This document shows positions 2,901-48,953 of a stretch of 64,000 nt of DNA, piece by piece. Made by a program: the position numbers and the translations under genes. This stretch comes from Branchiostoma floridae (Eukaryota > Chordata > Leptocardii > Amphioxiformes > Branchiostomatidae). The notes beneath the pieces are model-generated. The model saw only the letters and a program-made list of their open reading frames with translations, did no database searches and was not told the DNA's origin. The stretch is from assembly GCF_000003815.2 (NCBI RefSeq), contig NC_049994.1:2393449-2457448 (forward strand). Direction: 5' to 3'. The first letter of the stretch is position 1. Every line of letters starts with the position of its first letter.

Positions 2901-5667
2901 ACATCGCCTTCACAAAATTCAACCCAGCCTACTTGGAAAAACGTAGGTTTGCCGTCAGTGCGCTGAAAAATCTTGGAATGAAAATGGGACCAGGCAGCGT
3001 AGAAGAACACATCAGAGAAGAGGCTCGTCAGCTCTGTCTGAAGGTATTCTGTGCATATTCTCACCTTAAGCATTTTAAACATACATTAGTCTTGGATTAC
3101 GTTGCAATATGGCACAAATGACGACAATCTTGATAATTGTTTGAGTCAGTGAGTAAATAAATCTTTCTCATTTTCAAATATAGCACAAACCACCGAGTCA
3201 GATTCCAACCCTCTTGTTATTTGAGGGAAGGTTGTCAGCCAATCACGTTGCCTCTTGACTGTAGGCTGCGACGTGATTGGTTGATGTCTGCGAAGCGATA
3301 GCAAGTGATAGGTAGTGCAGGGTCTTGGTTTGACAAAAATACAAGCATGGTATGAGAGGATGCACAATCTGACCCATGTAGTGTGCATTTTCAAGCTGTC
3401 CGAACAAGGGGACGCACATCCACGTGACATCGCCGACAGCCTGACTGTGTCAGTCTCCAACATCGTCTGTTCCATGGTGTTCGGAAAACGTTACGACCAC
3501 GATGATGAAAAGTTCGTCGAACTGATGAAGATTGTACACAAGGTACTCTCCCAACTTGAACATGGATCCAGTCAGCTGATGATGGTGTTTCCCTTTCTCC
3601 GATTCATACCAGGAGGTAGGATCTGAAATGTATACCTGGACTTTTGTTTAAAAACTTGATTTTTGGCTAGTATGTATGGCTGATGTTCACCCTCATACTT
3701 CTTTTCGTTGAGCTGTAGACGGTTTACTTTAAGTGTTCATCGGACAATAATTTCATGTCCAAAACACCTGGGCGCCAACATGGCCGTGGGCGTACACAGC
3801 AATGATGTTGATTACATAAACAGTTGTTTTCTACACGATTTCATATTGAATTTTGTTTTTATCACAGTAAACTCAACAAACAGGATTCTTGTTGAGTGCA
3901 TTAACAAAGTCCACGAATTTCTTCGACAAGAAATTACGAAGCATCGCGAGATCCTGGATAGCGAGAATCCACGAGACTTCATCGACCTTATCCTCACCGA
4001 ACTACAGACCAAGGAGAAAACCGACTGTTTTACAGAGGAGAACATTGTGTGGATAATTCAAAATATGTTTTTTGCTGGAACGGAGACCACAGCCAACACC
4101 TTGCGATGGGGCATTCTCTACATGGTTCTGTGTCCAGAAGAACAGCAGAAGGTACCATATGTTACGTAATGCATTGTGGTCTAGGTCAAAATTCAAGATT
4201 TCTCTGCAAGTGAAAAAATTGTCTAGATGTGCAAAGGTCTGCTATCTTGTACAGGGTTGAATTTTACGTATGCCTTTGAAGTACAACCCACAATTTCTGC
4301 GCATGCGTACTCGAGATTCTCAAGTTCTAAAGTTTTATTTTTATTTTTTATTTTTTCAATTATTTATATATTTGGATTCTCCACTCTGACAATGGAGGGT
4401 ATGGCGGAACAGGTGTCAAGGGACACCTTTTCGAAGCCGCCATCCCTACAACATAACAATGATACATCAAATCATAATACACATAAATACAAGAGCAAAT
4501 ATCATAATCAATGTAAAGTTCAAATCAGGATAAATCAACTTTACAGCACACATACATTATTGAGTCCAAATATATGAAATAGATATACATGTAGTCATCT
4601 GTTAAAACACAATTCACAGCTCAAATGTGCTCACTTCAGATGCATTATTTAAAGATAAAAATAAAACCCTGTTACACTTACACTGCTATAGCTGTAGTAA
4701 GCTTTGTTGATTCATGTGAGAATGATCTGTAACAGGTCCAATCTGAGCTGGACAGTGTCCTGGGAACAGACCATGACGTGCCCACCCTGGCCCACAGGTC
4801 CCAGCTGCCGTATACCGAGGCTACTATCATGGAGACCCAGCGAATCCGACTTGTGGCTCCCCTTAATGCTCCTCATGCTCCTAACGAGGACACGACCTTC
4901 CGAGGCTATGATATCCCAGCGGGAACGCAGGTGAGTAACTTATAAGTACTCTAGATCTTTACGTTTCGTTATTGTTATCGTTGCATTTCTTTACTAGAAC
5001 CTCCCATGGTTCACTGAGTCGACGTCACTGGAAAGTGAGGTTTGTAGAAGAATATAATTCTTGGTATTTTCACGTTGATATTTTTTTAGTATGAATAATG
5101 GTGATATTTGTCGTGTTATGGCTCATGATGTATATAGAGAGCCTCGAAAATCATTTATTCGCTACATAGGTCCTTACCAACCTGTGGTCAGCTCATATGG
5201 ACCCAGAATACTGGGCGAACCCAGAGAAGTTTGACCCCCGTAGGTTTCTGGACACCGAAGGCAAGGTGGTCAGTAGGCCGGACTCATACCTACCCTTTTC
5301 TGCTGGTAAGTTATTAAACTCAAATTCAGCCGAAAAATCCTTAGAATTATTTTTCCTCGATTTGAAGCTACTGTCCCAGTTCCGAAGAAAATTTTACCTT
5401 CTAACGCTCCATTATCAGTTATAACCCAACAGTTGGTGTTGTTGAACTTTTTTTACTTTTGTTTCTTACATTTTCGCATCATCCCATTTTACAGGCCGCC
5501 GTGTCTGCCTCGGTGAGCAGCTGGCTAAGATGGAGCTCTTTCTGCTATTTTCTTCCCTCCTGAAACACTTCACCTTCAAGTTGCCAGAGGGCGCCGCTGC
5601 ACCTTCGGCCGATGACTGCATGAGAGTGACCCCGCCAAGAGTGAATATGTGCATCACTCGGCGCTAG
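2901..5667 (+). CDS. Cytochrome P450, CYP2-clan (3' six exons; N-terminus missing)
   Basis: Heme-thiolate monooxygenase, presumably bound to the ER membrane. Exons: 2901-3043, 3396-3615, 3868-4151, 4736-4930, 5170-5305, 5495-5667; total 1151 bp, phases 1/0/1/0/0/1 in succession, all with AG...GT borders. The C helix region reads EKRRFAVSALKNLG, typical of the CYP2 group. Exon 2 has VSNIVCSMVFGKRY. Exon 3 holds the I-helix oxygen-binding motif FFAGTETTANTLRW. Exon 4 has the K-helix ExxR as ETQR. Exon 5 has the PERF-like FDPRRF. Exons 5-6 join to form the heme loop FSAGRRVCLG with the cysteine ligand. The stop is TAG at 5665. About 383 of the usual ~490-500 residues are present; the membrane anchor and first ~115 residues (normally one or two exons) are not seen upstream. 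All catalytic motifs are intact, so the missing part is more likely in the gap or outside than truly lost. Subfamily cannot be assigned by eye. Confidence 0.95.
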
Positions 5668-11612: not shown

Positions 11613-12249
11613 TTACTTGCCCAGATACATGGAAATGGGCACGGCCACAGCAACGCTGATGACGTACAGGACAAGGCACAGCCTGTCCAGTACCTTGGTC
11701 AGCAGGGTGTAATCGGACACTTCCTGATCGCCCTTCACCGCCTTGGCCAGCTCCTCCAGGCTGTGGATCACCTCCTCCGCCTTCTGCTCGGACTTCACCG
11801 CCTGCTCCTGAACGATGCTAATCAGGTCACGCAGGCAAGAGGTCTGCTCTTCCACGGCGGCCTCCAGGCGGGTGGGCGGGCTGGACGGCTGGCGGGGTGT
11901 CCCGGAGACAGCGGCGGGGGTCTCTACGTCGGTCTCCGCCACGGCTTCGGCAGGGATGTCGCCTGTTGTACCGGAGACATCAGCTGGGGTCTCTCTGTCG
12001 ACCTTCACTACGTCATCGGAGATTTGAGCTTGGCTCTCGACCTCAACCTTTATCATACCATCGAAGACATCGGTCGGGTTCTTTCCGTCGGTCTCCGCCA
12101 ATTCTTCGTAGACATTGTCTGTGGTCTCCTCTCCGTCGACCTTGGCCGCGTCATCGGCAGGGACCATGCGATTGGCCCGCTCAGGCCAGGCCAGCTTCTT
12201 GCCGGTCGGGCCAGCCTCCTTCTCTGTGAGGTCTCCGAGCAACAGTAAC
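11613..12249 (-). CDS. Channel gene exon 19: cytoplasmic loop and TM4
   Basis: Terminal exon, 212 codons including TAA at 11613. The loop is acidic and carries degenerate VDxETxADV-type repeats, then a predicted amphipathic region (EEVIHSLEELAKAVKGDQEV) of the kind that precedes TM4. TM4 opens VLDRLCLVLYVI, the classic Cys-loop receptor signature, and the protein ends MYLGK. The acceptor giving phase 2 (ATAAG|G) is the only one here that matches exon 18. Confidence 0.92.
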
Positions 12250-15200
12250 CTTATCAAACATCAGCAAGAAGGTAAGATGATGATGTGTAATATTCTAACC
12301 AATGTTTATATCAATTTCTATGATCTAACGTTCAGATCATTACAAAATGTGACCACTGTTATTCAACAAAACTCTCTCAAAATCCACTATGAAATCTTCC
12401 TCCCACGGAAATCCACTTAGGTGCTGGTTTGGGCTGCTTCAACCTGCTACATTAAACTAAAGTGACATATTTTAAATGTTTTCGAGGATAAGAGATTTGC
12501 AATTTTTCTGATGATACATTTTTATAGAAACAGGAATGCCTGAATGTACCCAATTCGCATTATTTCATTTGGTCTTTGCAGTCTAAAACCTTTGTGTTGT
12601 AACGAGTAGAACATACTTTGCCATGTAGTGGAGAAAGAAAGTCTTGGCCATTGGTGACAGACTCCCCTCCTTGTCGTGGAGGCTGATGATGTACATGGTG
12701 AAGAACAGGAAAAGTCCCATCAGCCCCATGCAGACGACGATAAGCGTGGCTGTAATATGAATCATGGCATTTGTTTTGTTTCAGTACATAACCGGTAAAA
12801 CATCTTACGTCGTTGCCAGGTTTGCACTGAAGAGCATAAGCTACAAGTCCACTCACACCGGAAAGGACTCCTACTCTTTTCAATTAACAGATACCCGAAT
12901 GTTCTCTGAATGGCTTTATCTGATTGGTCCTTGAAAAATAACTTAAAGGTTCTTGAATTTAAAAAAAAGTTATTACGTTAATTACATTCCCCACCTTCCC
13001 GAAGTCCATTCAGGTAACTAAGGAGCTAAAGAAAATCAGTCTATGTATCTATTTGTTTATTCTATCTTAAGACGTGTGGGTGACCCCTTCGTCGTGTATA
13101 TATGAGCAAAAATAAGAATATGACAATTTTCTGTCCTCACCGAAAAACGGCAGCGCCCCTTTAACAGGAAGTACCTCCGTGACAAACACGAGAGACACGA
13201 CCATGGAGAGCAGGATGGTCACTCCGAAGGAGATCCGGTCTCCCCTGTCTATGGGCATGATAAAGGTGATGGTCATCAGCACCACCAGGATGACGCAGGG
13301 CCCAACGGTCGTGGCGATGTGGAACAGCGGGATCCTCTCCAGATGAACCGCGAAGCACGCCTTCTTGTTGCCTTCTGCGAAGATCTTGTCCTTCCGATTC
13401 CATTCGCCCTCCTGTTGTGGGGGAGACCAGACGTCACAGGTACTGCCCCCTCCGCATTCTGTGTTTCACAAATCATTACAAAAAATGATTGTCAATGAGA
13501 GATATTTCCTGGCATGATTAGTTTTCTTTGTCTCGGATATTCTTATCTTTGGCCGCATTAAGCAAATTGCATCATTAACATCCTCTGCAAAATAATGAGT
13601 TAGGTCGAAAAAATTGGAATAAATGACGTTTTTATTCCAGTGTTCAAGAAGTGAACTAGTGTAGTAAAATTGGCACTAGTGCGGTAGACTATCACGTGCA
13701 AAGTTGTCAACTACCTTCATGGCTTCCATATTGGTGCCACTTTTACAACTATCAAACTAGTTTCACTTCCAAAACTACAGATATGGTTCCTCCCTAGTGT
13801 CATTTCTACAAGTACAATCTTTAGGATACAACAATACATATTTCTGGAAGCGGCCTAACCTGAAATAAGGTAATGGAAATCTTTATTCCACTCAAATAAA
13901 CACAAATGAAATAAAATCAATTCGTGGCATATTCACAGCACCTTACCTATGGTTTGTTCAATTGCAGAGGACACAGAGAAACAGATGTGGCATTCCATGG
14001 TGTCAGCAGGGAAGAAGAACGGCTTTGCATCGCAGATGGTGCTTGTCAGAGTCTCCACCCTCCATGTTACAGTACCATCGGGTCTGATCAGGATCGGTAC
14101 GCCCTTTTGCAAGCCTTGGTACTTACCATCGGCACTGTGGGGTAACAAACAAAACATCATACTATTTCTAATAACATGGCTGATTTCGTTCTGGAAGAAG
14201 GTCAACAGATTTCTCAACACACGCATGTACACAGACACATAAACACAATCAAACGCACACATACCATTTATCATATTAATAACATATTTAACATGATGTG
14301 ATGTTGATGATATGATGATAGTTTACTAAGAGACCATCACATACTTCCTCTTCAGAGTAAATGTAGGTGTCCAGATGCTGCTGTCCCGCACAATGAGGGT
14401 CTGGATGTTCCCGTAGTACTCTGGCCACCACGTCAGCCGGCTGTCCTGCCAGGTCTGGCAAACAATTTAATTTTCTGAATATTATTCCACTTCGTGGAAA
14501 AGTCGCGAAATGCAAAACGACAAAATGGAATATTTTTTCAAAGAGCCTGAATGTGCTATAACTGCGTCTACTTACGAATTCGATGACTAAAGTGGCTACA
14601 AGAAGCTCCTTCTTTTCGTCCTGAAAAATAAGAGTTACAACATCAATTACTTAAATTCTGTTATCTCTTTGTACTGTCTATAAATAGATCTAGAAGAATC
14701 TCACATATATAAGAGATACTAAAGCTTACCAGGTCGGTGATCTGTTCCACAGTGCCACTGAAGGTGATTGCTGTGTCAGCATCAGGCGCCTGGTTGGGAC
14801 TGTACCCGTAGAGCAGGTCATCTTGCAGCGTACCTTTGATGTCCACTAAGGAGGGGGATGGTGCATACACATGGTTATACCCCTGTCACATTTGGCGAAA
14901 ATCGACCGGACGACGATTCTGCGGCAATCGCTCGGGCCTCGCCTATAATAATAACTTCTTGCACAACAATTGTACAAGGTACAAAGTATGGCTTATATGT
15001 GACATTGACGGTTTTCAGGTGAAGAATACGCGCAAACCTCTGTCGATCTAAATATGGCCGATCTTCCATCGATACGCCCAAAGATCGTGGATAATGTGAC
15101 AGGGGTATTATTAAGACGCATCAAATAAAGATCGAATTTAGTGCCAAGATGTTTGGAATACTAGATGAGGTAAGTCACAGCACAAAACAGTGATGTAGGC

Positions 15201-18200
15201 AAAGTTGTCGAAATACTTCTACATTTGTAAAACAAGAAGAGACATCTAAGCAGATTTTATAATTTAGCAAACTAAGGTAGCTGAAAGGCATATCTGACCT
15301 TTGGGCACACGTAAATATAATGTAAAATAAAAGTATTTTATGCGTAATATGATTTAGAGGTATTTAAATGTGTTGTACATGCAGACAGAACTGATTAGTT
15401 ATTATGTCCAGAAAGAAACAGAAAATGTTTCTGTTTAATAACTGTGGCAAACGTTTCTTTTATAGCTGACAAATAGAGATTCCTCTTCATATAATAATGA
15501 TATCGTATTTTTGCTCTCATCTCGGCTCGGACAAATACATTGATCATGTAGAAAGTGATACAACTGCTTTGAAGAAAACATACCAAATGTTCATGCGACA
15601 CGTTCAAACTTCCTCTAAGCGCTAACTTTACTGTGCACATCTTTGTAGAACATGCAGAATTGTTCAGACCGACAAATCTCTCACAATCACCTGAACAGCT
15701 GGGCTTGTCATATTGCCAGATGCCCCCTTGGAGGCACCTGACTCTGCTGGTATGTCTGGAGTCCAGAGTGTACCCTTCGTCGCAGGTGTACGTGACCTTT
15801 TCTCCCACGCGGTAGAACCTCTTGACAGGGCTTCTACTACCGAATGTTGGAAGACCCATGTCCAAGCAAACGCCTTCTAAATGAAATAGGAATCATCATG
15901 CTTTATTTTCAGCATAGATCAGAGGCGATGAGCAGAAGTTGGGTGTGACGGGTTGTTCAGTGTAATACGACCAGCTGCTGCCGCGCCGCGTGCCTGCGAA
16001 GCTGGTGTGTTACATCGAATGTTGGTTATACCGGCTACATAGATACAGATTCAGAAGCTGGTGTGTTACGCCGAAGGGCGGTTATACCGGCTATATAGAT
16101 ACAGATACAGAAGCTGGTGTGTTACGCTCAAGGGCGGTTACACTGGCTATATAGATAAAGATACAGACCAAGACTCTTGACAAGTTTTCATACATACATG
16201 TCCGAAAACCTGGAAATGCGTTCAAGTGACCTTGGGTATATGGTCCGAAGGACCTTGGGAATATGGTCCGAATGACCTTGGGAATATGGTCCGTGTGACC
16301 TCGGCGATACGGTCCTAGTGACCTTGGGAATATGGTCCGAGTGACCTTGGGAATATGGTTCGAATGACCTTGGGAATATGGTCCTAGTGACCTTGGGAAT
16401 ATGGTCCGAGTGACCTTGGGAATATGGTCCGAGTGAATTTGGGAATATGGTCCAAGTGACCTTGGGAATATAGTCCGGGTGACCTTAGGAATATGGTCCG
16501 AGTGACCTTGGGTATATGGTCGGAGTGACCTTGGGAATATAGTCCGAGTGACATGGGAATATGGTCCGAGTAACCTTGGGAATATGGTTCGAGTGACATG
16601 GGAATATGGTCCAGGAAAGTTATTCCATCTTGGAAATACAACTTACTGCAAGGCATGATGTCATCACATGGCGCCGTGTAATACTCTCCGTATCCGTCTC
16701 CGCCATCCACCATACAAAATGGCTGCTCGACCCCATAAGGGTTCCGGCAGTAGTTGCTGTCCAGATTAGCCCAGGGGTACGCGTTCACTAACATAACAAA
16801 CAGGACTACCTGCACCCTTGACCACTCCACACAATCTGCCCTGGAAGCTGTACCGCGGTAATTTATGCCACTGCCATGGTAGCAAACTGGGAAAGAGAAA
16901 TGGCCAAACACTAGTAATGTATCGTATAAATGTACTAACTGATGCATGGCGAATCTGTGCGACGAAAGTTACATCAGAACTATGACATTTATTGTAACCG
17001 GTAGTGAGTTTCATATGTATATATATATATATGACTCATCTTAAAGTAAAATTGTTTAAAATTTGTAGAAAGACACTTCCATGATTGAAATTTGAAATGA
17101 GAAGTTGATCTTAAAGATGCCTGAGGAGATTTGATGTATTTGTCAGTTGCGAGATCATGATGTCATAGAAAGGATTTGACTAAAATCATAGGTCTATTAT
17201 CTCTGTGTTAAAGTGGTAAGCGTAAGCAATGTATTAAACTCGTCCTGCAGTCTGTTGTGTAATTTTTGGGAATATACTTGTAGTCGCGTCTATTGTCTTT
17301 TTAAGTGGGGAAATGAGGCTGTACATGTACAGCGACCAGACCATTGAACTGTACGTTTGCTTCTTACAAGGGTAAGTGACTAAATCCTCTTCTATACTAA
17401 ATTCATATATTCAGAAACAGTCTAGAAAAAGGTATCAATCATTTTGTAGGTGTTAATACCAGTCGAAAGTGACAAGTCTAGTCTTCCTCCTTACCTTCGT
17501 TGTGGTTCGTCTCTGGTTCAGGGTTCCAACAGGGGTGAGGTGGTGACGGAAACAGGTCACAGGTAGGGAACCGGTTCTTCGTCCGGTCATCAGCCATGCG
17601 GAGGACTTCCTCACACCACGAGCGGCACGGCAGCAACTGTGTGCCCCTACAATGTACAATAAAAGGCAGGTTAGACTTGCCGTTCTCTTCTCCTGTCTAT
17701 ACACAATCTGGATAGAAACGGGTAGGATAGACGTGCACATGTGAGGTTTGTTATGCTCTACCGACCTCCAAAGTAAAATCAAAATTAAGAAATTTTAAGC
17801 GCGAACATCTTTTTGTAATAGTGAGTATGAACATGTCTGATATTAAGTTGAATGTATGTTCATTCCCGAATAATTGCCATAATAATCAATCCGATGTGAC
17901 CTTTACTCATAAGAACGAGGCCGTGTTGTCTCCATGTGGAGACGAATTCTAGGAATGGCTGTTCTCTTCGGAGACAAGACATTCAGTTTCAGTTTATTTA
18001 TTTATCCAGGAAAATACATCGCCTACTGGCGTTTTTCAATACCTCCTGGGGGACTGGGAGACCGGGAGACATCGCGGGAAGATGACCGTAGATGCAAATT
18101 CCCGGAACTCAGGATGACGGTTCTCTGCGTTGCTGTTAGAACTGTCGAGCAGGTCCACGACAGGGGAATTACGTATCTCCTCAAACGTCGTCTGGCCCAG

Positions 18201-21200
18201 CTGATTCGGCAGCATCGTAAGTCTGTCGCCGAGCTTCAGATCCACAGGAGTCGGCAGGCACACTGACAGTTATAACAATGTTATTTCATTTATTTTTACG
18301 AGAATACAAATACAGAAACTAAAGCTGAAATAGTTTTAAAAAAACTCCGTACGGGAGAAAAAAAAGCCTAGTTTGCTTATATACAAACCCTACTCATTTA
18401 ACAACAAATACTAATCACAATTCTACTGCAATAATTGAATAAAGACTTGAGCTATCTCTGAGTACTCATTATCGGGTATTTATTTTTTCAATATGAAATT
18501 TGACATACATGACATATTAGAGAAATTAAAACTCGGTATGTTCTACATCAGTTTTTTTTCAAATTTAATTTCCTCAAAGAGACGGGAGTCGCCTGGAGTG
18601 CGTGCAGATGACATTTCCCGCGTCTTTTGTTATCAGCGGAAAGAACATAATTTATAACATTAACTTTTATCAATCAATCCTGTTTCCGAGAGAAAGCAGG
18701 AACGGATCCGTGATAACTTTATTTACTTATCTAGATTTAACACGGTTGTGGAAGGATTGACGTAACATGTGACTATCACTATTTGATCATCGTTGAAGAG
18801 GTTCATCAGTCACGTATGAATACAGTTAATTCCAATTTTTTTCAATCAATGACTGTTTTGTAAGGTAAGGTACATACCTCCCAAATTTTCGATGTCTAAC
18901 AGCACATCGTCGTCATGGGGAATGATCTAGTCTCAATTATCGCGAGAGAACACGAGAAAATTTGGGAGGTATGTACCGTTACCTTACAAAAACAGTCATT
19001 GATTGAAGAAAATTGGAATTAACTGTATTCGTAAGTGACTGATGAACCTCTTCAACGATGATCAAAAGGTGATAGTCACCCGTTATGTCAATCCTTCCAC
19101 AACCGTGGTAAATCTAGATAAATAAATAAAAAAAATTGGAATTAACCGCCTTTGGAGCTCTTTCAATATGTCAACCAAGAGACCAGCCTGTAAGGTTTGA
19201 TCCACACACACCGGGAAAGTCCCCTACTCTTTGCGACAAGTGTGGCGGGTCCTTTAACGTGCGTGAGGTGTGGCTCTCCCCAAACACAGGGTCTCCATTT
19301 AATGTTTTATTCGATCCGAAGCTAGGTACTCATTTTCACCAGAGTAAAGTCGTTTAAAGTGCCTTTCCCAAGGGCACAATATCGGTGGCACGGCAGAGTT
19401 CGAACTCGAGACCTCTCGGTCCCGAGCCAAACACGCCACCGCTGCGCCACCGTTGCGCCACTGCTGCGCCACCACTGCGCTATGCGATCTCACTGCTTAG
19501 GCTTAGGTCACATTTTCAAACCGGGGCCCGGCAGGGCAGTTTACGGGAATAGTATGACATGCATCAAAATACACAAAATGTCAAAATAAGACTCATGGGC
19601 ATGATTTGTGTATATTTCTAGGTATACGGTGTATTTTTTTTTGTTTATTACAACTGCCCGGACGGGAAATGTGACCTAAGCCTTACCGCAACCTTCCTCG
19701 TCACTCCCGTCCGAACAGTCCATCCAACCGTTACACCGCTGCAACGCCAGGATGCAGGAACCTTCGCATGGCAGTTTCCCGGGGGAGCAGCTGACATCTG
19801 CGTAGGCAGCATGAAACGGCCTGTTAACTCTGCTAACTCACTAAGTAATGCTGTGATCATGACATGTTTAAATTCATGTCTATTAATTCCCCAGTAAGAG
19901 AAAAAAATGCGATAGCACCCCTCTATCAAATTACTTCACTAGTATATAACGTTAGACAGTTATTGAAATGACCGTTTGAAAACAACTGACCTGGCCTCCC
20001 CAGTGCCACGTTGACACCCTCCACAGGGACTGAAGGGACGTGATATTGGCGGTTAGCAGTCATAGATAACAGATTCGCTTGTACATAACTGTTATAAGCG
20101 AATAATCTATTTATTTTTAATCTATTTATGCAAGTAGGCTAATTGAAAGGGTACAGACAGTAAAAAAGTGTCTATTCTATGTCTATTATTCAGCTATATC
20201 ATGATTCTACATAACTCACACGTTTTCAATGATTAGTGAGTTCTGTGATTTTAACAGGAATGTAGTTTTTTGGAGGTCTACTAGCTGGTCATAAGAATAA
20301 AGTCAGCATTCATTTGTATAGTTGTATAAGCCAGGACTCGGTATATGTGAATTTTTTGTAGTGCAGACTTACCTGACAATATCCGGACTTCGCACAGGGT
20401 CAGTATTCTTGATGGTCCAGGCAGACGGACGGCTACATAGCGCCCCCGCATCCCCGGACAGGAGACGGAAATGGACGGCTGGGTCACGTTGATGTGATGG
20501 TCACCTCCACACTGGGGGTTGGTGCTGACCTGGTCGGAGTCCCCGATGTGGATGTTGAAGGGGTTAAGCCGATCACGACAGCAATCCTGGCGGTTGACTA
20601 TGACCACTCTGTAGATATTTTAGACAATGTGTTAGAGTTTTTTTTTTACACAACCCATTCTTTCTTCACCTGCTGACGCACCTATAACTCCAGTTAGAAG
20701 CTCTGAGGAAGATGTCTGACAGATATCGAAACGTCAGCAGGTGAGACAAACTGGTTGTGTAAAAAATCTTGTATGTCATATGATCTACCAACCTGATGGC
20801 ATTATTTTCGGAAGAGCTGGTATGTCATATGATCTACCAACCTGATGGCATTATTTTCGGAAGAGCACATAGGTTTTATACAAATATTCGGATGAACGTT
20901 CCTATAAAAAGTATAAACATCACATAATGTTTATACACTTATATAACACTCGAATCATCGTAGAAATCAGGAGAACAAAATATAGTTATATGTCCTAAAT
21001 GCTTAATGCTGATAATCGTACGTACACAAACGCAAAGACAGTGATATTTAGTTCAACCTGTCTATAGCGAACACTCAAGGGAATTTAAGAAAAAAAAAAC
21101 GTGTTAGCTGCTATAGACAGAATTGTTGATGCTTGGATCAAATAGGAAAAATCTGAGGACCATTGAAAAGAGGCCAGAATGACCAGGAGGTCCGTATGCA

Positions 21201-24200
21201 GAGGTAGCACAGGTTTTTCTGCGTTTGTTTTTCGCGGGTCTGCACTTTTGTGTGACTTAATTAGTTTTGCATCTTTACTCTAATGACCGACAGATGAACA
21301 TAAATGTATAAATCCCTACCTATCAACCGCATACGCTTGTCCGAGATCCACCCACCAGGTGGCATTGTCCTCCCCGTCATGTGCAGTGTTTGTGCAGGAG
21401 GCAGAGTCCCAGTCGGTAGCGGTGTTCCCGTCTACGGCCCGGCTGGCGATCCCACCCCAACCGGTGCTGGTTTGGAACGCCGGCTTCCCCAGGGCGACAT
21501 TGACAGCTACCAAATAAACAGACTCTTTTTACACAACCAATGCTTTATTCTCACCGATGTTTCGTCTGTCGCCTTCTTCAGGGCAATTCTGACTGGTTCA
21601 CACGAATTGATCTTCTGTCACAATCTTGCCATACCACGGTATCGTTAACTAGTCATCAAATGTTCTTGATCGATTGATGTGTAGGAAAGCATTTGAATGT
21701 TGAGGAGCCAATGTAGTTAAAGGGGCATTCCACTCCAGAAGGGGGTGGTGTTTTCCGATAGATAATGTGTCAATGAATACATAATCAGCCGAGTTTTGTT
21801 GAGTTCATGATCACCTTGGGATAAATTACGCAATGTGTGTTTTGTAAAACAATATGACACTCACTAAACCCATGCAGATCCTACCAATGCATTCCCTATA
21901 CGTGTAGACACTTCCTTTATCGTGAATAATTTCGGCATAAATGAGGGGCGCTAAGTACATCAAGAAGTTCAATTGTTCACAAGATATCAAAGAACACATA
22001 ACAAGACGTATCTTTCTTAGCGCTCCTGAGATTAGCTTTGTAACCTTACCGAAAAAATTGGTATTGTATTGTATTCAACCATAGGATTAATTCAATTAGC
22101 GGGTACTTGGGGAGTTTAGTAGAAGACTGAATGCTTTTGAGGCACGTGGAGTAACTGGATACTTTATCGTATGATGTGAAGTAGTATGTTTTTATTATTT
22201 CCTAAAATTAATATCTATCGAAAAATAACACTCCCGTGTGGAGTGGAATGCCCCTTTAATACAGATGGAAGAAGATCATAACACAGAATTAACCCTTAAA
22301 CTGCCAGATTTTCGGTGCCAGGGTTGGCTGCTGACCTCCAAAAAGAAACCCCCGAACAAGTCCCTAACTTTCGGGGTTCGTGCGCTAACTTTCGGGGTTC
22401 GTGCGCTACACGCACGAAAAGCTGCTACTTTGGGGGAATACGCTATCACGGATATATCCGGGCGCGACACAAAGGGCATGTAAAGTGGACAACTTAGTGA
22501 TCACTGAGCGACAGTTGTGTGACCACTGAGCGCCGACTGCAAAAGCGCTGAGTGACAGGCAAACGTGAAGATCATTTTGAAAGGGTGTGGCTACGGCTGC
22601 ACGACCTACTTAACGATCGCACTACTTATTAAATTCAAATCAATGTTACCCTTTAGTAAGCATTTACTTTGAAACTTCCTTGTATCCATGTTTCTATAGC
22701 TTATAAAACAATACGATTTTTCCTTTACCTCCGTAGAAGTCCAGCTCTGTGAGCCATGGCTGCCAGCCCGAGTGGGTCTCGGTAATTAGGAACCTCCAAT
22801 ACTGAGCTGTTCCCTGGAACCCACCGAACTCCTGCCGCTCGTCCGTCCCTCCCTGCACGGTAGTAACGGTCACGACGTCCTCCCAGTTGTACGGACTCCC
22901 AACCTGCGACTTTTGCAGCGTAAAGGCTGCAGTGTCATGGGTGGTGTCTCCGTAGTTGTTTACAGCGACGCGGGTGATAGTATGGGGCACTGTGAGGTTC
23001 AGTACAATGTACCAGTTGTTGTAGTTCTGACCCGTACCCCTAGGGTTCCAGTAGGTACCAGTGTCTCCATCCAAGGCTTTTGTGGCATCATACGTCACTC
23101 CGTTGTGTACCTTCGGTGTGCCGGCGGAGTCCACAACCCATGACGGATCCCTTACCAGCCACACACCTGGAGAAGTATGACACATGGCATCATTTCTCTG
23201 TCAATATTTCGTATAAAAAAAGGTACCTTAACTAAACGTAAATGTGTCTTATATTAAATATGGAGCGATCGATATGACACACATTACTCACCACCACAAC
23301 GGCACACGTACACTTGTAGTATATACAGTATATGGCAATATATCTGTTTCAAAAATACAGGAGCTATATACGTGACGTTTGACCTATATTTACGTCACAT
23401 GGGACGTAAAATACGTCACGTCCGACCTATTACGAACACGTCACATGAAAGCGAAGCATACGTGACTTAATTGTATCGATTAACTTAGTTAACTATCAAT
23501 AACTAGAAATTGAGCGGGACCTTATTTGTCCACGTTACAGGCGACGCGTGTGCCCCGTAACGCGATAGCGAGTAAGGACACCGTACATACGCAGCGCATA
23601 TAAGCAGGGCCTGCATATACGGTAACCTGGCAATCACACAGAAATCGCATGTTCAACTCACTTACCACTTGCGCAACGAACGATACACACAACCGGCTCA
23701 CGACCAGGCGTGGCGTGCAGACCACATACTTACACCTTACGCAGCCGTGCAAGTGACGCGCGTTGAGACGTACTCCCTCCCTTCTCTTACTATTCCTTCC
23801 CCACTTTTTCAGAAAAACATGACTCCCCAAAAACGTACGGACCAAAAGCACGTACGGTGGGTTGTGCCCTTAGCTTAAGACGTAATTTAAATATCGTCAT
23901 CAGGTATATGATATCGCAATTCAGGCGATACTGTATCGTTCTGTTTTGTACATTGTATATCGGAATATCGTATCACAAAACGTGCGTTAAAGTGCGTAAT
24001 GATTATGGCCATAGATTACAATTATGTTGATCACTGTTCATTGTCACATGCATGTTCCCCATGTTTCTACCATGTATTTGCAATTAGCCTTCGGGCATGA
24101 TCTTGCAAATAAACTTTCTATTATAAAGATTCTTCAATTGACGCAGTTCATATTTCCGTCTGGATGTTGTTTTGATCGGACAATTCTTTCATACAATATA

Positions 24201-26482
24201 TCTTTTTTTAGAGTAATTCTGCCAAAGGTGATCGAAAAGAGAAGTTGAATATGTCTTACCATCCTGTATCTCGCAGACGTAGCGGAATTGGTCGAGGCAG
24301 TTTGCGTCTGCCCACTTGTCTTGTCGTTCGCCCACTTTGTCCCCGAAGACGATGTGCGCACAGTTCACTCCGCTGTCTGGCTCCCCGGATGCCCAACTGG
24401 TATAACTGCCCAGTGCGGTGCCCCTGTCGTCTTTCCAGACACCCGCTGTCTTCCTTATACCAAGCCAAAACTGAGCGTCCCTATGTTGTTGAATGTAAAA
24501 GTGCATGGCATGAGTTTGCTACTGCCTCTCTTATTGCTAGTTTTGCAGACAACAATATCCATTCAACGTCTTTCGGACGCAGCAACATCTTGTGCTGTAG
24601 TGCTATGTCAACCAGCCAGAATTGCCATGATGGAAGTGACAGACGGTCACCAAAAAGTCGTTATGAATAAAACAATTTTTGTGTTAAATGAGTTTCTTTA
24701 TTAAGTGAAGTACCGACCTGATGAAACTGTTCACGAATTTCCATTCAACTAGCAGTGAGGCCAAAGCCCATACATTTGTCACCTTACCTGCTGACGCAGT
24801 TCTTTAGGAACGCCAGGTTCTGTTGTTCCTCTTCGTCCCTTGGAATCGCAACGATGCCGCCTTGTTGTCTGCATTCTTCCTGTGCACCCCCATACGTTGA
24901 GCTGCCTTCAGGGACGGTGTACGTCTTACCACTGGGTAGTACGATTCGGTTGTCTTGCGGACAGGGTGCTTCAAAGACAAGAGTTCGTAGAACTAATACC
25001 TCCATGAAATATTCTGATGATGCAGATGACTTTCACATCTGCATAATTTATGCTTGATTATGAACATCTTTAACTAACAAAGGTTACAATACTGACAATC
25101 CAATCATTTACTATATGTACTGAGATTAATTAGGGCACTTTGACGTTCATCGTATGCAATATTATGCAATTTAGGGACTTATTTGCATGATTGATATCCG
25201 CTAATCTTCTACCTACCACAAGCTATGTAATTTATGTTACAGGTATTTGAGTCCTAAAAGGGAAACACTATAAATAAAAATAAAAATAAAATTTAGGCCG
25301 GACGAGATGGCAGACATCTGCCCGCTAGGCCAACAATGTTCTTCTTACGTTGAGATACATACAAACTACGTTGGAAATTGGACGGTATTCCAGACCTAGT
25401 TTGCACGGGCGTTCAACCAATCAGATATTGATTATACTAGTAACGCGTACATAGGAAACTTGACACATCTCTTCCTGTCGTAGATTCCAGCTCTGTTGAA
25501 AAGCTGCACATTTCTTTGGGCAGTACAATTAGTTTTTGCAATATTATGCAAATTATGGAAGTGTTGCAAAATTGATATCTGCTAATCTTCCTACCTACCT
25601 ACCACAAGTTATATGTTACAGGAATTTGAGTCCTATAATGGAAAACACTATAAATATAGATTTTCTTATTAACCCTATGCAGACCGGGCTTTTTTGGTCT
25701 TCCATGGACGGGGGGGATGGTCTTTTGAGGCCCGCCCCTTCTGACACCTGTAATTCTAAAACGAATTATCGTATGGCCACCAAATTTTCAGAGCATGATA
25801 TAGACATAATATCTGACGTTTATGTACGTTTGACGCAACGGTGACGTAATATGACGTAATTATGACGTCATCAATTCGACTTGATTGGCTGGAACCGTGA
25901 AATGGGGGTATTCCCAGAAAACCTCAATGTATGCTACAAAAATGTAACAATAAGTGCAGATAACAGAACGATAATGTTTATTACGACTTATGTTGCCAAT
26001 AACAACATCGATGACTTGTCATAATGACGTTTTGACATCTGTAAAAGACGTCACGTAAATTATGTCACACAGTAAGGAGCATGTGACGTGTTTTAGTATG
26101 TCGGCAGTGTGACGTGTGACATTTGTAAAAGACGTCACGTACCTTATGTCACACGTTAAGGAGCATGTGACGTGTTTTTGAAAAATCTATAAATCTTGAC
26201 TGTCTGAAACGTCATTTCCTGCATTTGAAGGGCGCATTTTGCTTGTATTTACTAAGGCCCCTAAAGACACTCTTATTTCGATGACCCTCCCCCCAGGCCA
26301 AAATGAATTCGATGACCCTCCCCCCAGGCCAAAAAAATCATGGCCCTCCCCCCAGTGCACATCACCCCACCCCACACCCCTCGGTAAATATCGTGAAGTC
26401 CCTTACCTTGTTGGGCACTGGTCAAGCAGGCGAAGAATACCACAAGGATGAACACCTTAAACCAGCCATGTAAACCAGCCAT
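11613..26482 (-). CDS. Chimeric multi-lectin Cys-loop ligand-gated ion channel subunit (19 exons)
   Basis: Predicted plasma-membrane channel subunit with a giant extracellular head. Exons in transcript order: 26407-26482, 24788-24968, 24260-24480, 22729-23166, 21320-21506, 20373-20608, 19991-20029, 19687-19797, 18043-18262, 17495-17646, 16647-16886, 15691-15876, 14730-14845, 14576-14620, 14345-14454, 13947-14134, 13141-13458, 12617-12749, 11613-12249. They total 3834 bp and every junction keeps phase: 1277 aa plus TAA. Order: signal peptide 1-25, C-type lectin 26-159, F5/8C 160-305, F-type lectin 306-446, linker 447-459, LDLa 460-496, Frizzled CRD 497-620, kringle 621-700, sushi 701-762, Cys-loop ligand-binding domain 763-~960, TM1-TM3 ~965-1055, cytoplasmic loop, TM4 near the C-terminus. 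Ordinary nicotinic subunits are ~450-600 aa and have no such ectodomain. The fusion rests on splice phase and signals, not on a transcript; two genes transcribed through would be the alternative, but no stop or new start separates sushi and channel. Confidence 0.88.
12617..13458 (-). CDS. Channel gene exons 17-18: end of LBD, TM1, TM2 (pore) and TM3
   Basis: Exons 13141-13458 and 12617-12749. Exon 17 contains HLERIPLFHIATTVGPC leading into TM1, the FIMPIDRGD TM1-TM2 turn and the pore helix. By alignment the pore has -1' Asp, 0' Arg, 2' Ser, 6' Thr, 9' Leu, 13' Val and 20' Glu, as expected for a cation-selective channel; the 9' gate leucine is kept. Exon 18 starts exactly where TM3 aligns without a gap and ends with MAK before the cytoplasmic loop. 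Loop C lacks vicinal cysteines. Confidence 0.92.
13947..14845 (-). CDS. Channel gene exons 13-16: Cys-loop receptor ligand-binding domain
   Basis: Exons 14730-14845, 14576-14620 (45 bp), 14345-14454 (110 bp) and 13947-14134. Typical words: LQDDLLYGYSP (first helix), DEKKELLVATLVIEFTWQDS, RLTWWPEYYG, IWTPTFTL, NADGKYQG and the Cys-loop CDAKPFFFPADTMEC with exactly 13 residues between cysteines. The 45-bp and 110-bp exons equal exons 3 and 4 of vertebrate nicotinic subunit genes. Hand alignment suggests that aromatic residues of the acetylcholine site (loops A, B and D) are replaced. Confidence 0.93.
14877..15108. mobile_element. Small MITE with ATACCCCTGTCACATT ends
   Basis: The left end ATACCCCTGTCACATT and right end AATGTGACAGGGGTAT are perfect inverted repeats, 232 bp overall. 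It sits in the intron between the sushi exon and the first ligand-binding-domain exon, only about 30 bp upstream of that exon's acceptor. Confidence 0.82.
15691..15876 (-). CDS. Channel gene exon 12: sushi (CCP) domain
   Basis: One exon, phase 1-1, with four cysteines and the closing Trp in the correct order (VCLDMGLP, VTYTCDEGYTL, RVRCLQGGIW, KPSC). It joins the channel ligand-binding domain directly as PSCS-VDIKG. Confidence 0.93.
15935..16175 (+). repeat. Short tandem repeat, ~57-bp unit (GAAGCTGGTGTGTTACGC)
   Basis: About three units around GAAGCTGGTGTGTTACGC...GGTTATACCGGCTA. The same sequence with its leader (GCTGCCGCGCCGCGTGCCTG) recurs at about 30185-30350, so this is a dispersed element with internal tandem units. 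It lies in the intron after the kringle exon. Confidence 0.75.
16205..16622 (+). repeat. Minisatellite, ~23-bp unit (GACCTTGGGAATATGGTCCG)
   Basis: About 18 imperfect copies of a 23-bp unit. The array ends some 20 bp from the kringle exon's donor, so on the transcript it begins almost immediately after the 5' splice site. Confidence 0.92.
16647..16886 (-). CDS. Channel gene exon 11: kringle domain
   Basis: One 240-bp exon, phase 1-1, with six cysteines. It opens VCYHGSGINYRGTASRADC and contains the kringle hallmark LDSNYCRNPYG and PFCMVD. The segment between CVEW and AYPW has the usual length but is unusually hydrophobic (VVLFVML) where kringles carry a polar PHxH-type stretch. Confidence 0.9.
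17495..18262 (-). CDS. Channel gene exons 9-10: Frizzled-type cysteine-rich domain
   Basis: Exons 18043-18262 and 17495-17646. Recognisable words are LTMLPNQLGQTTFEE, STVIFPRCLP and LLPCRSWCEEV followed by FPTC and PHPC. Only six of the usual ten cysteines are present. By position these are C1, C5, C6, C7, C9 and C10, which would keep three complete disulfides and drop two complete ones. Fz followed by kringle is also the arrangement in ROR receptor kinases. Confidence 0.85.
18722..19128. repeat. Large imperfect palindrome (fold-back element)
   Basis: Arms of about 170 bp (18722-18889 and 18955-19128) are inverted copies around a ~65-bp centre; for example TTTGGGAGGTATGTACC pairs with GGTACATACCTCCCAAA. 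The ends read ATCTAGATTTAACACGG and CCGTGGTAAATCTAGAT. It lies in the intron between the LDLa and Frizzled exons. Probably a fold-back MITE. Confidence 0.9.
19185..19490 (-). mobile_element. tRNA-derived SINE (family 1) with multiplied A box
   Basis: Same body as the 6.1-6.5 kb and 35.0-35.2 kb copies. On the minus strand the head shows GAGTTCGAAC as B box, but the A-box region is expanded to about four near-identical 12-14 bp units (GCGCAGTGGTGGC) at about 19430-19486. Confidence 0.8.
19687..19797 (-). CDS. Channel gene exon 8: LDL-receptor class A repeat
   Basis: One 111-bp exon, phase 1-1, encoding a complete six-cysteine LDLa module. It ends in the calcium-binding DCSDGSDEEGC. Confidence 0.93.
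19991..20029 (-). CDS. Channel gene exon 7: 39-bp linker, relic of a second F-type lectin
   Basis: The exon encodes PVEGVNVALGRP, the typical opening strand of an F-type lectin, yet the next exon is LDLa. It has a good AG acceptor and GTCAGT donor and phase 1-1, so it can be included without breaking the frame. Whether it is spliced in is unproven; skipping it also keeps the frame. Confidence 0.6.
20373..21506 (-). CDS. Channel gene exons 5-6: F-type (fucose-binding) lectin domain
   Basis: Exons 21320-21506 and 20373-20608. The domain starts VNVALGKPAFQTS, has AVDGNTATDW and WWVDLGQAYAVD, and then the fucolectin core NRQDCCRDRL with the adjacent cysteine pair. The fucose-contacting set (His in TAHDGED, then Arg-x-Asp-Cys-Cys-x-x-Arg) is complete, so fucose recognition is plausible. 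The intron inside the domain is phase 2; both ends are phase 1. Confidence 0.92.
20680..20870. repeat. Intronic repeats: GAAACGTCAGC fragment and a 50-bp tandem duplication
   Basis: About 20690-20760 carries GAAGATGTCTGACAGATATC and CGAAACGTCAGCAGGTG, a dispersed retroelement 3'-end type word; a related fragment lies at about 21515-21600 on the other strand. About 20768-20868 is a direct duplication of roughly 50 bp beginning TATGTCATATGATC. Both are in the intron of the F-type lectin. Confidence 0.6.
21717..22259. mobile_element. TTAA-flanked MITE, family C
   Basis: The left end TTAAAGGGGCATTCCACTCC and right end GGAGTGGAATGCCCCTTTAA are perfect inverted repeats, 543 bp overall, with TTAA at each edge. 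It is in the intron between the F5/8C and F-type lectin exons. No transposase. Confidence 0.9.
22729..23166 (-). CDS. Channel gene exon 4: F5/8 type C (discoidin-like) domain
   Basis: A single 438-bp exon, phase 1-1. It shows ALDGDTGTYWNP, WYIVLNL and [20 protein letters not shown], the order expected for a galactose-binding-like F5/8C fold. The exon is strikingly similar to 48354-48794 in the second modular gene, and so is the start of the following intron, so the two share a recent common ancestor. Confidence 0.9.
24260..24968 (-). CDS. Channel gene exons 2-3: C-type lectin domain
   Basis: Exons 24788-24968 and 24260-24480. The domain has six cysteines, the WLGI signature as FWLGIRK, a long-loop EPD where sugar-binding lectins have EPN or QPD, and KWADANC where the WND motif is expected, then YVCE at the end. 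Calcium-site 2 is therefore only partly conserved: the EPD proline motif is kept, the WND asparagine is Ala, and the usual intervening acid is His. Sugar binding is possible but not assured. The module is flanked by phase-1 introns. Confidence 0.9.
24980..25668. repeat. Dispersed AT-rich repeat copies upstream of the lectin exon
   Basis: About 24980-25230 is a copy of the 1590-1836 repeat, and a partial second copy follows at about 25530-25660 with the shared word TTTGAGTCCTA. Both lie in the intron between the signal-peptide and C-type lectin exons. No exon was seen here. Confidence 0.65.
25669..26040. mobile_element. TTAA MITE family A, left half
   Basis: Begins TTAACCCTATGCAGACCGGG and carries the family interior (TGACGTAATTATGACGTCA-type words). 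The right inverted repeat is missing. It is followed by two copies of a ~100-bp GACGTCACGTA repeat to about 26185. It lies in the first intron of the channel gene. Confidence 0.7.
26407..26482 (-). CDS. Channel gene exon 1: start codon and signal peptide
   Basis: The chosen ATG (26480-26482) begins MAGLHGWFKVFILVVFFACL, a short n-region and a strong hydrophobic core, followed by TSAQQ, a good cleavage context. The exon ends in phase 1 at a GTAAGG donor and joins the C-type lectin exon as ...SAQQ-A-PCPQ. An in-frame upstream ATG would add 27 residues before the hydrophobic core, which makes it less likely as the start. Confidence 0.85.
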
Positions 26483-37100: not shown

Positions 37101-40100
37101 TTAACCTGAAAAGGTGGTTACGGTTGAGTCTAATATGTTAGTCATCACCAACTGCCCATCCGGTCCCACAGCGATACCCCATGGCTCTGTAATGTTCGCT
37201 ACAGTACAGACAAACTCCCCACGGCTTGTGAACTTGTCTACCCTGTTGCTTTCACGGTTTGCCACGATAATGTGACCCGAGGGGCCAATAAGAATATTTC
37301 TTGGGGATCTTAATTGACCCTGGCCGTGTCCAAAGTTTCCAAATTCAAATATCTTCTTTCCCAATTGACTGTAGAACTTAACACTTTGGTGGCCTGTCAG
37401 CAGGATATTTCCTTCGTTGTCCGATATGACCCCATTGATTCGCACGTTTCGTTTCTTAAAACTCGCTTTAAAACTCCGAACGAGAGGGCCATTTGGCTGG
37501 AACATCATTACTGTATCTCCCTCCCCCACAATAACTTTGTTGTTGCGCACGTCTATCGCAATGACGGGATGGTGATAACTACTATTGACTGGTACATCGA
37601 ACTTCTCCATAGGCAGGCCGTACCTTCGGTACTGTACAACACATGCACTTAATAAAACCCTATTCCCCACTACCCACAGGTAGCCGGGTTTCACATCAAC
37701 AGCAACACTGATAGGATACATTCTTCCATTTTCACCCGGCAGTACCGTTTGGAAGAGGCGCAGATATGTCCCATTTATGCTGAAGACTTGGACCCGCTTG
37801 TTGATGTCATCAGTCACAAATATCTCATTATCAGCTGACACAGCCACTCCGTAGTTACCTCTGAATTTTTCAGGTTGTGCTCCTTTCCCACCAAAGGTGA
37901 TCTTTTGCATCTTTCTGTGATGGTTTTCTGAAGAAGAAAAAAGTAAAAAAGAATTTTGTGTTTAATACATTGACGTGTACGTGCAAAAGTTTGAGTTTGA
38001 TGTCGGTAGTGAGTACATGCCACGATCACTGCTTAGAGAAGGTTGAAGGGATATGTGTATTAAGCTTGCTCAACTTCTCCGTTCATATATATATAGAGAG
38101 AGCTTCCGTAATTGTCTCTAAAGAAATTCTTCCCTGAGCAACGATATGTGAAGTTTCGTGCAAGGCTCACCTCGCTGTGACCTGCTAGAGACTGCCGGTG
38201 GTATGGGCTAGCTACATAGACCTGTAAACTCCAGGGGAACGGGTGGCATACAAAGTCGCTGCCGTTTTCTATTTAATTATTTGCAAAACAAATTGCTGCC
38301 TGTCTCACCTTCAGGTTCAAGTTTCACCCAAGGCTCACCTTCAGGTTGTGTGCTATTGGAGACTGCCATTGTTGTGGGGCTATATGTACTACCCATTGTA
38401 GCTGCCGGTTGCAGATAGCTTTCTGCAATAAATAATAAAATCATATCCAGAATATTCAAGACAATAATCTTGTTTAGTGTCAAATATCTTGATGCATAGT
38501 GAAACAAACTCTCTCAAACTTAAACTCTTCAAGTGTACAGACTTATATAAACTTTAATGTTAGTCTTACCTCCATGCTGTGGACTGTTGGATACTGCAGG
38601 CGGCGTGGGATCACCAGTGGGACCAGAGGTCAAGGTAGTATCCAAAGTCGCTGCCGGCTGTAGGTAGAGGGTTACCTTGTCATTACTTCATCCAGCAACA
38701 AAGCGTCTTACCAAAGCAATGGCGAATTTTGACAGATGTGAGCCACTGTCAACAGTTGCGCGATCAAGCATAATTGTCCTTGTTTCATCCTAATAACGTC
38801 CAAGCCAAGGCCAAAATTGAGTCAAACATATCTCAACAACTTGCTAACAAAGCAGCTAAAGCTGAAGGACGAAATCTTACCGCTGGTGTGCTGGTATCAA
38901 AGAAGAACCAGAGAAAGACCCCGCCGGCGATGAACAGAGCAATGACTGTAACCGCTTTTACAACTGAGCACACCTGCTGACGTGTATATTCTAAAAAATG
39001 CAAAATATATATCGGAACATTCCATGTTCAATTAATTTTTGACTAAGTTTTAAGGCCGCTGTATGAAAATGCATTCTTATAAACAATCAACAAATTCGAA
39101 AGTATTATGATAAAAAATTTCTCCACAAGGGTTGGACATTTAAGCTCAGTATAGATTCACAAACAGAACGCTCTTTGTAAAAGATCACTCGATGTCATAT
39201 TTTATCACGTAACTGTAAGTCAGGCTCCACCTTGCATGCAAAATCAAGAGATTAACCGATCGCGAATGGCTTTAAATATCATCATCGTCATCATATAGAC
39301 GCATCTTACCGCAAGCTGCAGGATGCTGAACGTTTGGCACGTACATCGGATTTTGATGAAGTACATTCGGTACATGTTGCCTTTCATCACTAACAAGATC
39401 AGGAGGATTTCCGTCATCGCTCGATGGGTTTGTCAAGACACCAGTGTTGATGCTACATGAGGCCGCTGGCACACAGTCGAATGCCTCAATAGGAGTTTCG
39501 TCGTCATTCTTGTATCTAACAGAATATGGTTGGATTTGGGTGTCTCTATCATTGTTAGCTGACTCGACAATTTCTTCTTGATATTTAACAGCATAGGGCT
39601 GGGCGACATCACAGCTGTATGACTCGACGGCAGGTTTTCTGAAAGGTTTAAGACACCTAACAGCACATGGCTGGAGGCAGCGATTGTTGCCATTGTTTAC
39701 TCCCTCAACACTTTCCTTATCATCGTCTTTCTGTCGTGTAACAGCACACGGTTGTAGGCAGGGGTTGCCATCGCTGTTATCAGACTTGAAGGTGGGTCCA
39801 GGGCTGACAATTAGCTCTTTGGAGCTTTGTAGGTACATCGGATTAGGGTTACCATCGTTTGGAGGAGTGTCCACAGTGCTTTTTGTGTACGTCAGGTTCG
39901 GATTAACGTCCGTTGTGCATTGTGTGTACATCGGGTTAGGGTTAACTTCGTTTGGAGGATGGTTCACGGTGGTTTGTGTGTACATCGGGTTACGAGTAAC
40001 GTCGTTTGGAGGACGGTCCATGGTGGTTTGTGTGTACATCGGGTTACGAGTAACGTCGTTTGGAGGACGGTCCACGGTGGTTTGTGCGTACATCGGGTTC

Positions 40101-47900: not shown

Positions 47901-48353
47901 TCGGCGACCTCATACCTCCCTGAAATATTTAAAGTTTTGTAAATTTGATGTGAATGACTTAGTATACACATTGACATGATTTATGCATGGTGATGTTCAA
48001 CATTGACTAACATACACACGTCAAAAGTAAAAAAATTCCATCAATAAGTGGTTTTACAATTATTGAACATATTATGCAAGTAAGTTCCTCATTTGCATAT
48101 TTGGTATCAGTATATGTTCCACCTATCGTAATTTACATGTTTTACATTTATTGAAGTCCAGTTATTGAAAACAATGGAATTATACAATTTTCGTATTGAT
48201 GATGCAAATAAAGCCACCATTTGCATAACAGGTATATCATTATGAACATCTTTGCCTAAGCTACATGTTACCCTTTAGCTACTATCTACTTTGAACTTTC
48301 CTTGTATCGATATTTCTATAGGTTATAAAACAGAATTATTTTTTTTACTTTAC

Positions 48354-48794
48354 CTGGTAATAGTCCGTAGAGGTCTAGCTCTTTGAGCCATGGCTGCCAG
48401 CCCGAGTGGGTCTCAGTAACTAGGAACCTCCAATACCGAGCTGTTCCCTGGAACCCGCCGAACTCCTGCCGCTGGCTCGTCCCTCCCTGCACGGTAGTAA
48501 CAGTCACGACGTCCTCCCAGTTGTACGGACTCTCAACCTGTGAATTTTGCATCGTAAAGTCTGCGATGTCATGGATTGTGTCGCCGTAGTTGTTTACAGC
48601 GACACGAGTAATAGTATGTGACGCTGTGAGGTCCAGCACTATATACCAGTTGGCCCAGACACCTTGGGGGTTCCAGAAGGTCTCAGTGTCCCCATCCAAT
48701 GCCTTTGCGGCATCATACGTCACTCCGTTGCCTGGGGCCCACGGTGTGCCGGTGGAGTCCACAACCCATGACGGATCCCTTACCATCCACACAC
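48354..48794 (-). CDS. Second modular gene exon 6: F5/8C domain
   Basis: A 441-bp exon, phase 1-1, clearly homologous to 22729-23166 (shared [52 protein letters not shown]). The similarity continues about 60 bp into the following intron and past the upstream acceptor. Confidence 0.88.

Positions 48795-48880: not shown

Positions 48881-48953
<73 letters not shown>

Follow-up and report, generated by a model that had tools for sequence, protein, structure and literature searches.

A gene in a 64,000-nucleotide stretch of the Branchiostoma floridae genome (hereafter the window) is predicted to place lectin, discoidin and other ectodomain modules on one polypeptide with a complete nicotinic-type Cys-loop channel, and it belongs to a large lancelet family in which the same stalk of modules precedes the same kind of pore. 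On the genomic evidence we regard this architecture, and the family as described here, as almost certain.

Rebuilt from the raw sequence, the gene lies on the minus strand (26482..11613), where 19 exons give 1277 codons and a stop; all introns are GT-AG and the exon phases are continuous, so the exon coordinates and single frame proposed by an earlier sequence-only reading of the window hold as given. The encoded order is signal peptide, C-type lectin domain (CTLD), F5/8C, F-type lectin, LDLa, a degenerate Frizzled (Fz) CRD, kringle, sushi, a nicotinic-type ligand-binding domain (LBD) and four transmembrane segments (TMs), and the hydropathy profile of the 1277-residue protein has a hydrophobic leader followed by four other membrane segments. 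The earlier reading had counted eight ectodomain modules and up to forty per pentamer; we count seven besides the LBD, so a homopentamer would carry 35. All seven domain types that it listed, and the channel, were recovered, with the Frizzled CRD degenerate and below the Pfam cut-off in the window gene. The neighbours within the window include a cytochrome P450 exon (3684-4169, plus strand) and an NHL-repeat protein (37101-37961, minus strand), both ordinary. Exons of one or more lectin-type genes also lie on the minus strand at 48316-55638 (F5/8C at 48316-48828, SUEL lectin at 53709-54176, laminin-G/pentraxin-like at 55192-55638), and inside this SUEL and F5/8C lectin region long plus-strand open reading frames (49616-53150) resemble, by eye, a non-LTR retroelement with endonuclease and reverse transcriptase.

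The distal part of the protein is encoded by exons 1 to 7, which, like all exons of the gene, are read from the minus strand. Exon 1 (26407..26482) supplies the ATG and signal peptide MAGLHGWFKVFILVVFFACLTSA, conserved at 98.9% in the near-copy L074. Exons 2 (24788..24968) and 3 (24260..24480) each encode half of the CTLD (Lectin_C 49-156, 55.1 bits). The carbohydrate-binding C-type lectin signature is EPN or QPD plus WND; the window CTLD has EPD, in exon 3, and WADA instead, and sugar binding by this domain is therefore doubtful. The F5/8 type C (discoidin) domain is contained in exon 4 (22729..23166), which by itself scores 43.0 bits with F5_F8_type_C_2 and 40.5 bits with F5_F8_type_C; in the whole protein, F5_F8_type_C_2 reaches 100.3 bits over two stretches. 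The F-type lectin, divided between exons 5 (21320..21506, with matches to FBP32 and 1k12) and 6 (20373..20608), was assigned to residues 306-446 by PDB match (FBP32, 3.7e-48; lectin chain 1k12, 1.4e-16). Its fucose motif H..RxDx4R is present, as H-X25-RQDCCRDR completed across the exon junction, and the H-X25-R spacing lies within the canonical H-to-R range of about 24-26. Exon 7 (19991..20029), of 39 nt and phase-neutral, resembles the opening residues of another F-lectin-type repeat; it may be optional, and it is retained in L074 (96% over 52 bases).

The remaining extracellular modules form what we call the stalk. Exon 8 (19687..19797) encodes an LDLa module with 6 Cys (Ldl_recept_a, 29.0 bits), and exons 9 (18043..18262) and 10 (17495..17646) encode the two parts of the Frizzled CRD. 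The window Fz scores 19.5 bits against a Pfam cut-off of 32.1, and the corresponding region of the paralog L065 gave no Pfam Fz match at E values up to 0.1; we accept the assignment because the corresponding exons of the divergent paralog L066 score 58.9 bits, above the cut-off. Such degeneracy suggests that Wnt binding is not the job of this domain. Exon 9 is 220 nt long in the window and 262 nt in the paralogs L063-L065 with the donors chosen for them, leaving the window exon 42 nt shorter and with two Cys fewer. By eye, a homologous end can be seen on the minus strand from 18043 to about 17985, after an inserted stretch; exon 9 of L066 likewise stops soon past the same Cys. Exon 11 (16647..16886) encodes a complete kringle with 6 Cys (42.7 bits). 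A truncated kringle beginning at 16787 was considered and rejected, since the acceptor at 16886 gives the full six-cysteine module in the same phase. Exon 12 (15691..15876) encodes the sushi/CCP module (33.8 bits), and the intron that separates it from the kringle holds two tandem arrays (16225-16612, a 23-base unit repeated 17 times; 15998-16167, a 56-base unit repeated 3 times). The Lectin_C, F5_F8_type_C_2, LDLa, kringle and sushi scores all exceed the curated Pfam cut-offs, and the number of Cys is even in the CTLD (6), F-lectin (6), LDLa (6), Fz (6), kringle (6) and sushi (4) modules.

The channel part begins in exon 13 (14730..14845; Neur_chan_LBD 768-908) and has the features of a nicotinic-type subunit. 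The LBD continues through exons 14 (14576..14620), 15 (14345..14454) and 16 (13947..14134), the last of which carries the Cys-loop CDAKPFFFPADTMEC with 13 residues between its two Cys. Exon 17 (13141..13458) encodes the end of the LBD, TM1 and the TM2 pore helix, exon 18 (12617..12749) TM3, and exon 19 (11613..12249) the cytoplasmic loop, TM4 and the stop. Both Neur_chan_LBD (95.9 bits) and Neur_chan_memb (62.9 bits) lie above the Pfam cut-off, the four TM hydropathy peaks start at 967, 991, 1020 and 1256, and the best PDB matches are nicotinic acetylcholine receptor (nAChR) chains, namely alpha-4, Torpedo beta and alpha-7. The window TM2, GDRISFGVTILLSMVVSLVFVTEV, has acidic residues at -1' and 20' and Leu at 9', and across the family -1' is Asp in 36/36 rows and 9' is Leu in 36/36, with Glu (18), Asp (15) or Gly (3) at 20', a count that includes 4 repeats of one locus. 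Assuming the position numbering and the meaning for cation selectivity that we take these residues to have, the pore is predicted to be cation-type. Aligned with alpha-4, the aromatic box that binds acetylcholine is replaced in the window subunit (Tyr to Lys in loop A, Trp to Ser in loop B, Trp to Val in loop D), as are the Tyr-Cys-Cys-Tyr residues of loop C, which align with Asp, Ile, Phe and Asn in the least certain part of the alignment and put Ile-Phe in place of the vicinal Cys of the nAChR alpha subunit. Classical acetylcholine gating at this subunit's own site is therefore unlikely.

To place the gene in its genome, we searched the assembly from which the window comes (513 Mb, 431 contigs). 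The channel half retrieved 138 rows, which were reduced to 64 channel places, one per locus, leaving out three of the six rows below 35% identity and C11:56705 (a TM3 exon alone). With the LDLa-Fz-kringle-sushi part of the window gene as query, 131 rows were found, and all 131 lie on the same strand as a channel place and no more than 40 kb upstream of it. A second stalk query, from the divergent L066, added 77 of its 146 rows, picked near channels plus ten others and therefore a biased count; kringles without a channel occur among its weaker rows. Sixty of the 64 channel places have at least one Fz, kringle or sushi module upstream on the same strand within 32 kb, with the only stalk module 23-29 kb away at two of them (C11:103880 and C3:9265565). 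Two or more stalk modules are present at 55 of the 64 places, and the order is Fz, kringle, sushi, channel in 55/55. No channel place (0/64) has a stalk module downstream on the same strand within 10 kb, and at 4 of 64 a module lies on the opposite strand no more than 32 kb away. No upstream stalk module was found at the remaining four places, C4:18898458 (51% identity) and three rows whose identity is 25-33%. A further complete Fz-kringle-sushi set (C8:9517017-9519578) lies about 7 kb upstream of another without a channel match of its own listed, and is either a poreless stalk or an overlooked copy.

These results indicate that the fusion of channel and stalk is not a local accident. The fusion first read as a lone chimera appears to be real and, rather than single, to be one of about 60 loci, a figure that may exceed the number of working genes because those on the small contigs C221, C230 and C256 may be alternative haplotypes and an open frame was checked for part of the loci. 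A tree of the TM1-TM2 exon (40 rows after removal of four repeats, midpoint root) separates eight ordinary receptor rows from 32 family rows by a fully supported branch, which fits a single fusion and does not prove it.

The anatomy of the paralogs agrees with that of the window gene. In L063-L065, splice sites lie within 3 nt of the place projected from the window gene for 34/35 acceptors and 28/33 donors, and in the divergent L066 for 6/9 acceptors and 7/9 donors; the scan sought sites in the phase of the window gene, which in part guarantees that phases agree but not that places do. The misses are mainly the donor of Fz exon 9, for which a site further on was chosen in L063-L065; the others are a GC donor at L064 exon 13 and exons 13 and 14 of L066, which were not found. 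By eye, L064 exon 13 ends near 5890 at an apparent GC-AG intron (TTG/GCAAGT, the slash marking the junction). On another contig, L073 has matches to CUB, LDLa, Fz, kringle, sushi, LBD and TM in that order. The near-copy L074, at C16:2.04 Mb, matches the window gene at 94% over about 7 kb; in exons 1-8 of this copy the splice sites are preserved and the frame stays open for 496 residues, with no stop and 20 differences. Several paralogs have additional stretches of their own: the LBD exon 13 of L065 (5463-5764) is 186 nt longer than in the window, with a Thr/Glu-rich repeat inside the LBD; putatively coding mucin-type Ser/Thr/Pro repeats lie near the heads of L063 (1232-2113, reverse strand) and L065 (1123-1719); and open stretches without a Pfam match lie upstream of the sushi and CTLD head of L064 (13-820).

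Whereas stalk and pore are constant, the distal head varies, as shown by the differing kinds of head match that lie upstream of channels. These counts score position upstream of a channel; splicing of head to stalk was followed in the window gene and its near-copy. The window's F5/8C exon has many close relatives in non-channel places. Of its 131 rows, 21 were used, chosen for their nearness to channels together with some others; ten channel places, counting that of the window, have an F5/8C exon of this kind in the 24 kb upstream, and at two of the ten the distance exceeds 20 kb and the link is doubtful. With the L064 CTLD as query, 15 of the best 24 of 150 rows, including the first 13, are found at 15 different channel places, no more than 25 kb upstream of the channel, and with a CUB query 20 of the best 24 of 150 rows, including the first 18, lie upstream of 13 channel places. 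The heads thus appear to be exchangeable among C-type lectin, F5/8C and CUB. The CTLDs of L064 and L065 contain both EPN and WND, which we take to signal sugar binding, and among the matches of the L064 CTLD are C-type lectin receptors such as mannose receptors and DC-SIGN.

Selection differs in clarity between these parts. We calculated dN/dS for pieces of seven paralogs with a Nei-Gojobori script. For the stalk (exons 8-12) it is 0.23-0.54 in 6/7 comparisons, the seventh having zero nonsynonymous change over 61 codons, and for channel exons 13-18 it is 0.04-0.42 in 7/7, with 0.04-0.15 against the three nearest copies; by this measure purifying selection acts on both stalk and channel. For the distal head the picture is less clear. 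Exon 4 (F5/8C) gives 0.23, 0.32 and 0.45 in three comparisons, and exon 5 gives 0.65 against one copy; against the nearest copy the CTLD exon gives 1.34 and exon 5 1.25, both on a dS of about 0.02 and very few changes. The head values would fit relaxed or diversifying selection, which are indistinguishable here.

To our knowledge, animal Cys-loop channels have only the LBD outside the membrane. The window protein shares with nAChR subunits the LBD, the 13-residue Cys-loop, four TMs and a cation-type TM2; it differs in its seven extra ectodomain modules and in the replaced aromatic-box residues and vicinal Cys. A Fz domain followed directly by a kringle is found in the ROR/MuSK receptor kinases, and the L065 kringle matches ROR2 among others; however, that kringle matches plasminogen and HGF better, and the window protein gave no Pfam match to a tyrosine kinase domain. 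In the polycystin-1 family, too, a large lectin-bearing ectodomain is tied to a cation channel, polycystin-1 pairing with a TRP channel, but the membrane part is unrelated. FBP32 and the eel-type F-type lectins, which share the domain match and the DCC/RDR core, are soluble agglutinins. Among pentameric ligand-gated channels (pLGICs), DeCLIC and other prokaryotic members also have extra N-terminal domains, which in DeCLIC influence gating kinetics (PMC9897478, in excerpt); DeCLIC is bacterial, and its two beta-rich lobes are not described in that excerpt as lectin, Fz, kringle or sushi. The same excerpt of this 2022 paper treats such N-terminal domains as prokaryotic and not observed in eukaryotic homologs, in agreement with the earlier statement that no family with such an ectodomain is known to have been described; we likewise found no description of a channel-lectin family in the open-licence literature on amphioxus Cys-loop or nicotinic channels and on domain fusions. 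The portion consulted of PMC6354393, which treats amphioxus nAChR genes, mentions no extra domains, and that of PMC4795631 has terminal parts discarded and points to domain architectures as a subject of study. Public archives may well contain predicted proteins of this architecture. A functional parallel is LEV-9/LEV-10 and Hig, proteins with sushi, CUB and LDLa modules that act on acetylcholine receptors (in worms, sushi in LEV-9 and CUB/LDLa in LEV-10; PMC9083331, in excerpt); those are separate proteins, whereas the lancelet family has a single polypeptide.

The likely function of the protein would be that of a surface-contact-gated or surface-anchored cation channel. The N terminus of the LBD faces away from the membrane throughout the pLGIC family, so stalk and heads are expected on the outer side of the pore; five subunits would form a cation channel with the heads ringing the pore above the LBD. 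The heads would bind multivalent surface ligands, such as glycans or matrix on a neighbouring cell, extracellular matrix or a microbe, a step favoured by the EPN/WND CTLDs of L064 and L065, the lectin-receptor matches of L064 and the F-lectin motif of the window gene. Bound heads might then pull on the stalk or change its orientation, thereby gating the pore, or might keep the channel at the sites that need it, for local cation entry. We infer the coupling of head to gate; clustering fits the same anatomy. Sensing of glycans, microbes or matrix, proposed in the sequence-only reading, may be the role, and is helped by the exchangeable heads, the intact F-lectin core and the EPN/WND CTLDs in two paralogs. 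As a whole, a lectin-headed, stalked nicotinic-type subunit acting as a contact-gated or anchored cation channel is the best explanation, and we give it close to an even chance; that contact through the heads gates or primes the channel is, taken by itself, a proposal we hold somewhat below even.

Two other readings question the gene itself. Two adjacent genes, one for a secreted lectin-type protein and one for a channel, might have been joined wrongly, since the gene model comes from genomic sequence. The junction lies at intron 12 (14846..15690, minus strand; phase 1 on both sides), and the sequence-only reading had held that a separate start before 14845 would indicate two genes. We looked for one in four genes: the open frame entering the LBD exon contains no Met in any of them (window, L063, L064, L065). 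The sushi-LBD intron measures 845 bp in the window, 223 in L063, 98 in L064 and 298 in L065; it holds one weak leader-exon candidate in the window and, in L065, a single ATG for which three ends are possible. There is no hydrophobic leader-exon candidate in L063 or L064, and the 98 bp of L064 are too short for a second gene start or a leader exon. No paralog with sushi and LBD in a single exon was noticed among the matches, in which the shortest sushi-to-TM distance is 1516 bp. With the identical module order at 55/55 places and phases that match across the junction, we reject the two-gene reading as extremely improbable on synteny, phase and the 98-bp intron, and the one-gene claim stands. 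The window copy could instead be a decaying duplicate without function, as its shortened exon 9, lacking two Cys of L063-L065, and the head dN/dS values that exceed 1 in the comparison with one near copy might suggest. This is very unlikely: 19/19 exons are open with intact splice sites, channel dN/dS stays at 0.04-0.15 against the three nearest copies, every Cys-bearing module has an even number of Cys, and exons 1-8 of the near-copy are open as well.

Other alternatives accept the gene and assign its ectodomain a different role. If the ectodomain were cleaved after synthesis, a soluble lectin and a short channel would act separately. The long Ser/Thr stretches near the heads of L063 and L065 are of the kind where shedding occurs, and give no direct support; LEV-9 and Hig are processed, according to the excerpt of PMC9083331. 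In the window protein, however, the sushi module meets the LBD with almost no linker (SCS-VDIKG), and the stalk order is kept at all 55 places with two or more modules, which makes cleavage improbable. The main rival is that head and stalk cluster or localise the receptor in cis without gating it, with a small ligand at a non-classical site, or partner subunits, opening the pore. ROR-type Fz-kringle proteins act in placing acetylcholine receptors in worms, the same module types are fused here (sushi and LDLa, with CUB in L066 and L073), and the constancy of stalk and pore beneath variable heads fits as well. CCP and CUB proteins cluster acetylcholine receptors in C. elegans and Drosophila (PMC9083331, in excerpt), yet the same excerpt has the LDLa of LEV-10 dispensable for clustering. 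Moreover, a fixed synaptic scaffold needs neither lectin heads nor head turnover, and the replaced aromatic box leaves a transmitter role not evident. We consider a clustering device a serious possibility, short of probable.

We tentatively propose, as possible and well short of probable, that lancelets have about 60 ionotropic recognition receptors, each with a constant LDLa-Fz-kringle-sushi stalk and nicotinic-type pore and a swappable lectin, discoidin or CUB head, in which contact with glycans, matrix or microbes would be converted directly into ion flow. A large chordate family that breaks the LBD-only rule would offer a natural experiment on the coupling of large added domains to a pentameric gate, and its members would unite in one chain the receptor and scaffold that in worms and flies are complexes of several proteins. 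For the lancelet, the family would link innate-type recognition modules to fast electrical signalling, and such a channel might let cells open or anchor it by touching sugars, matrix or microbes.
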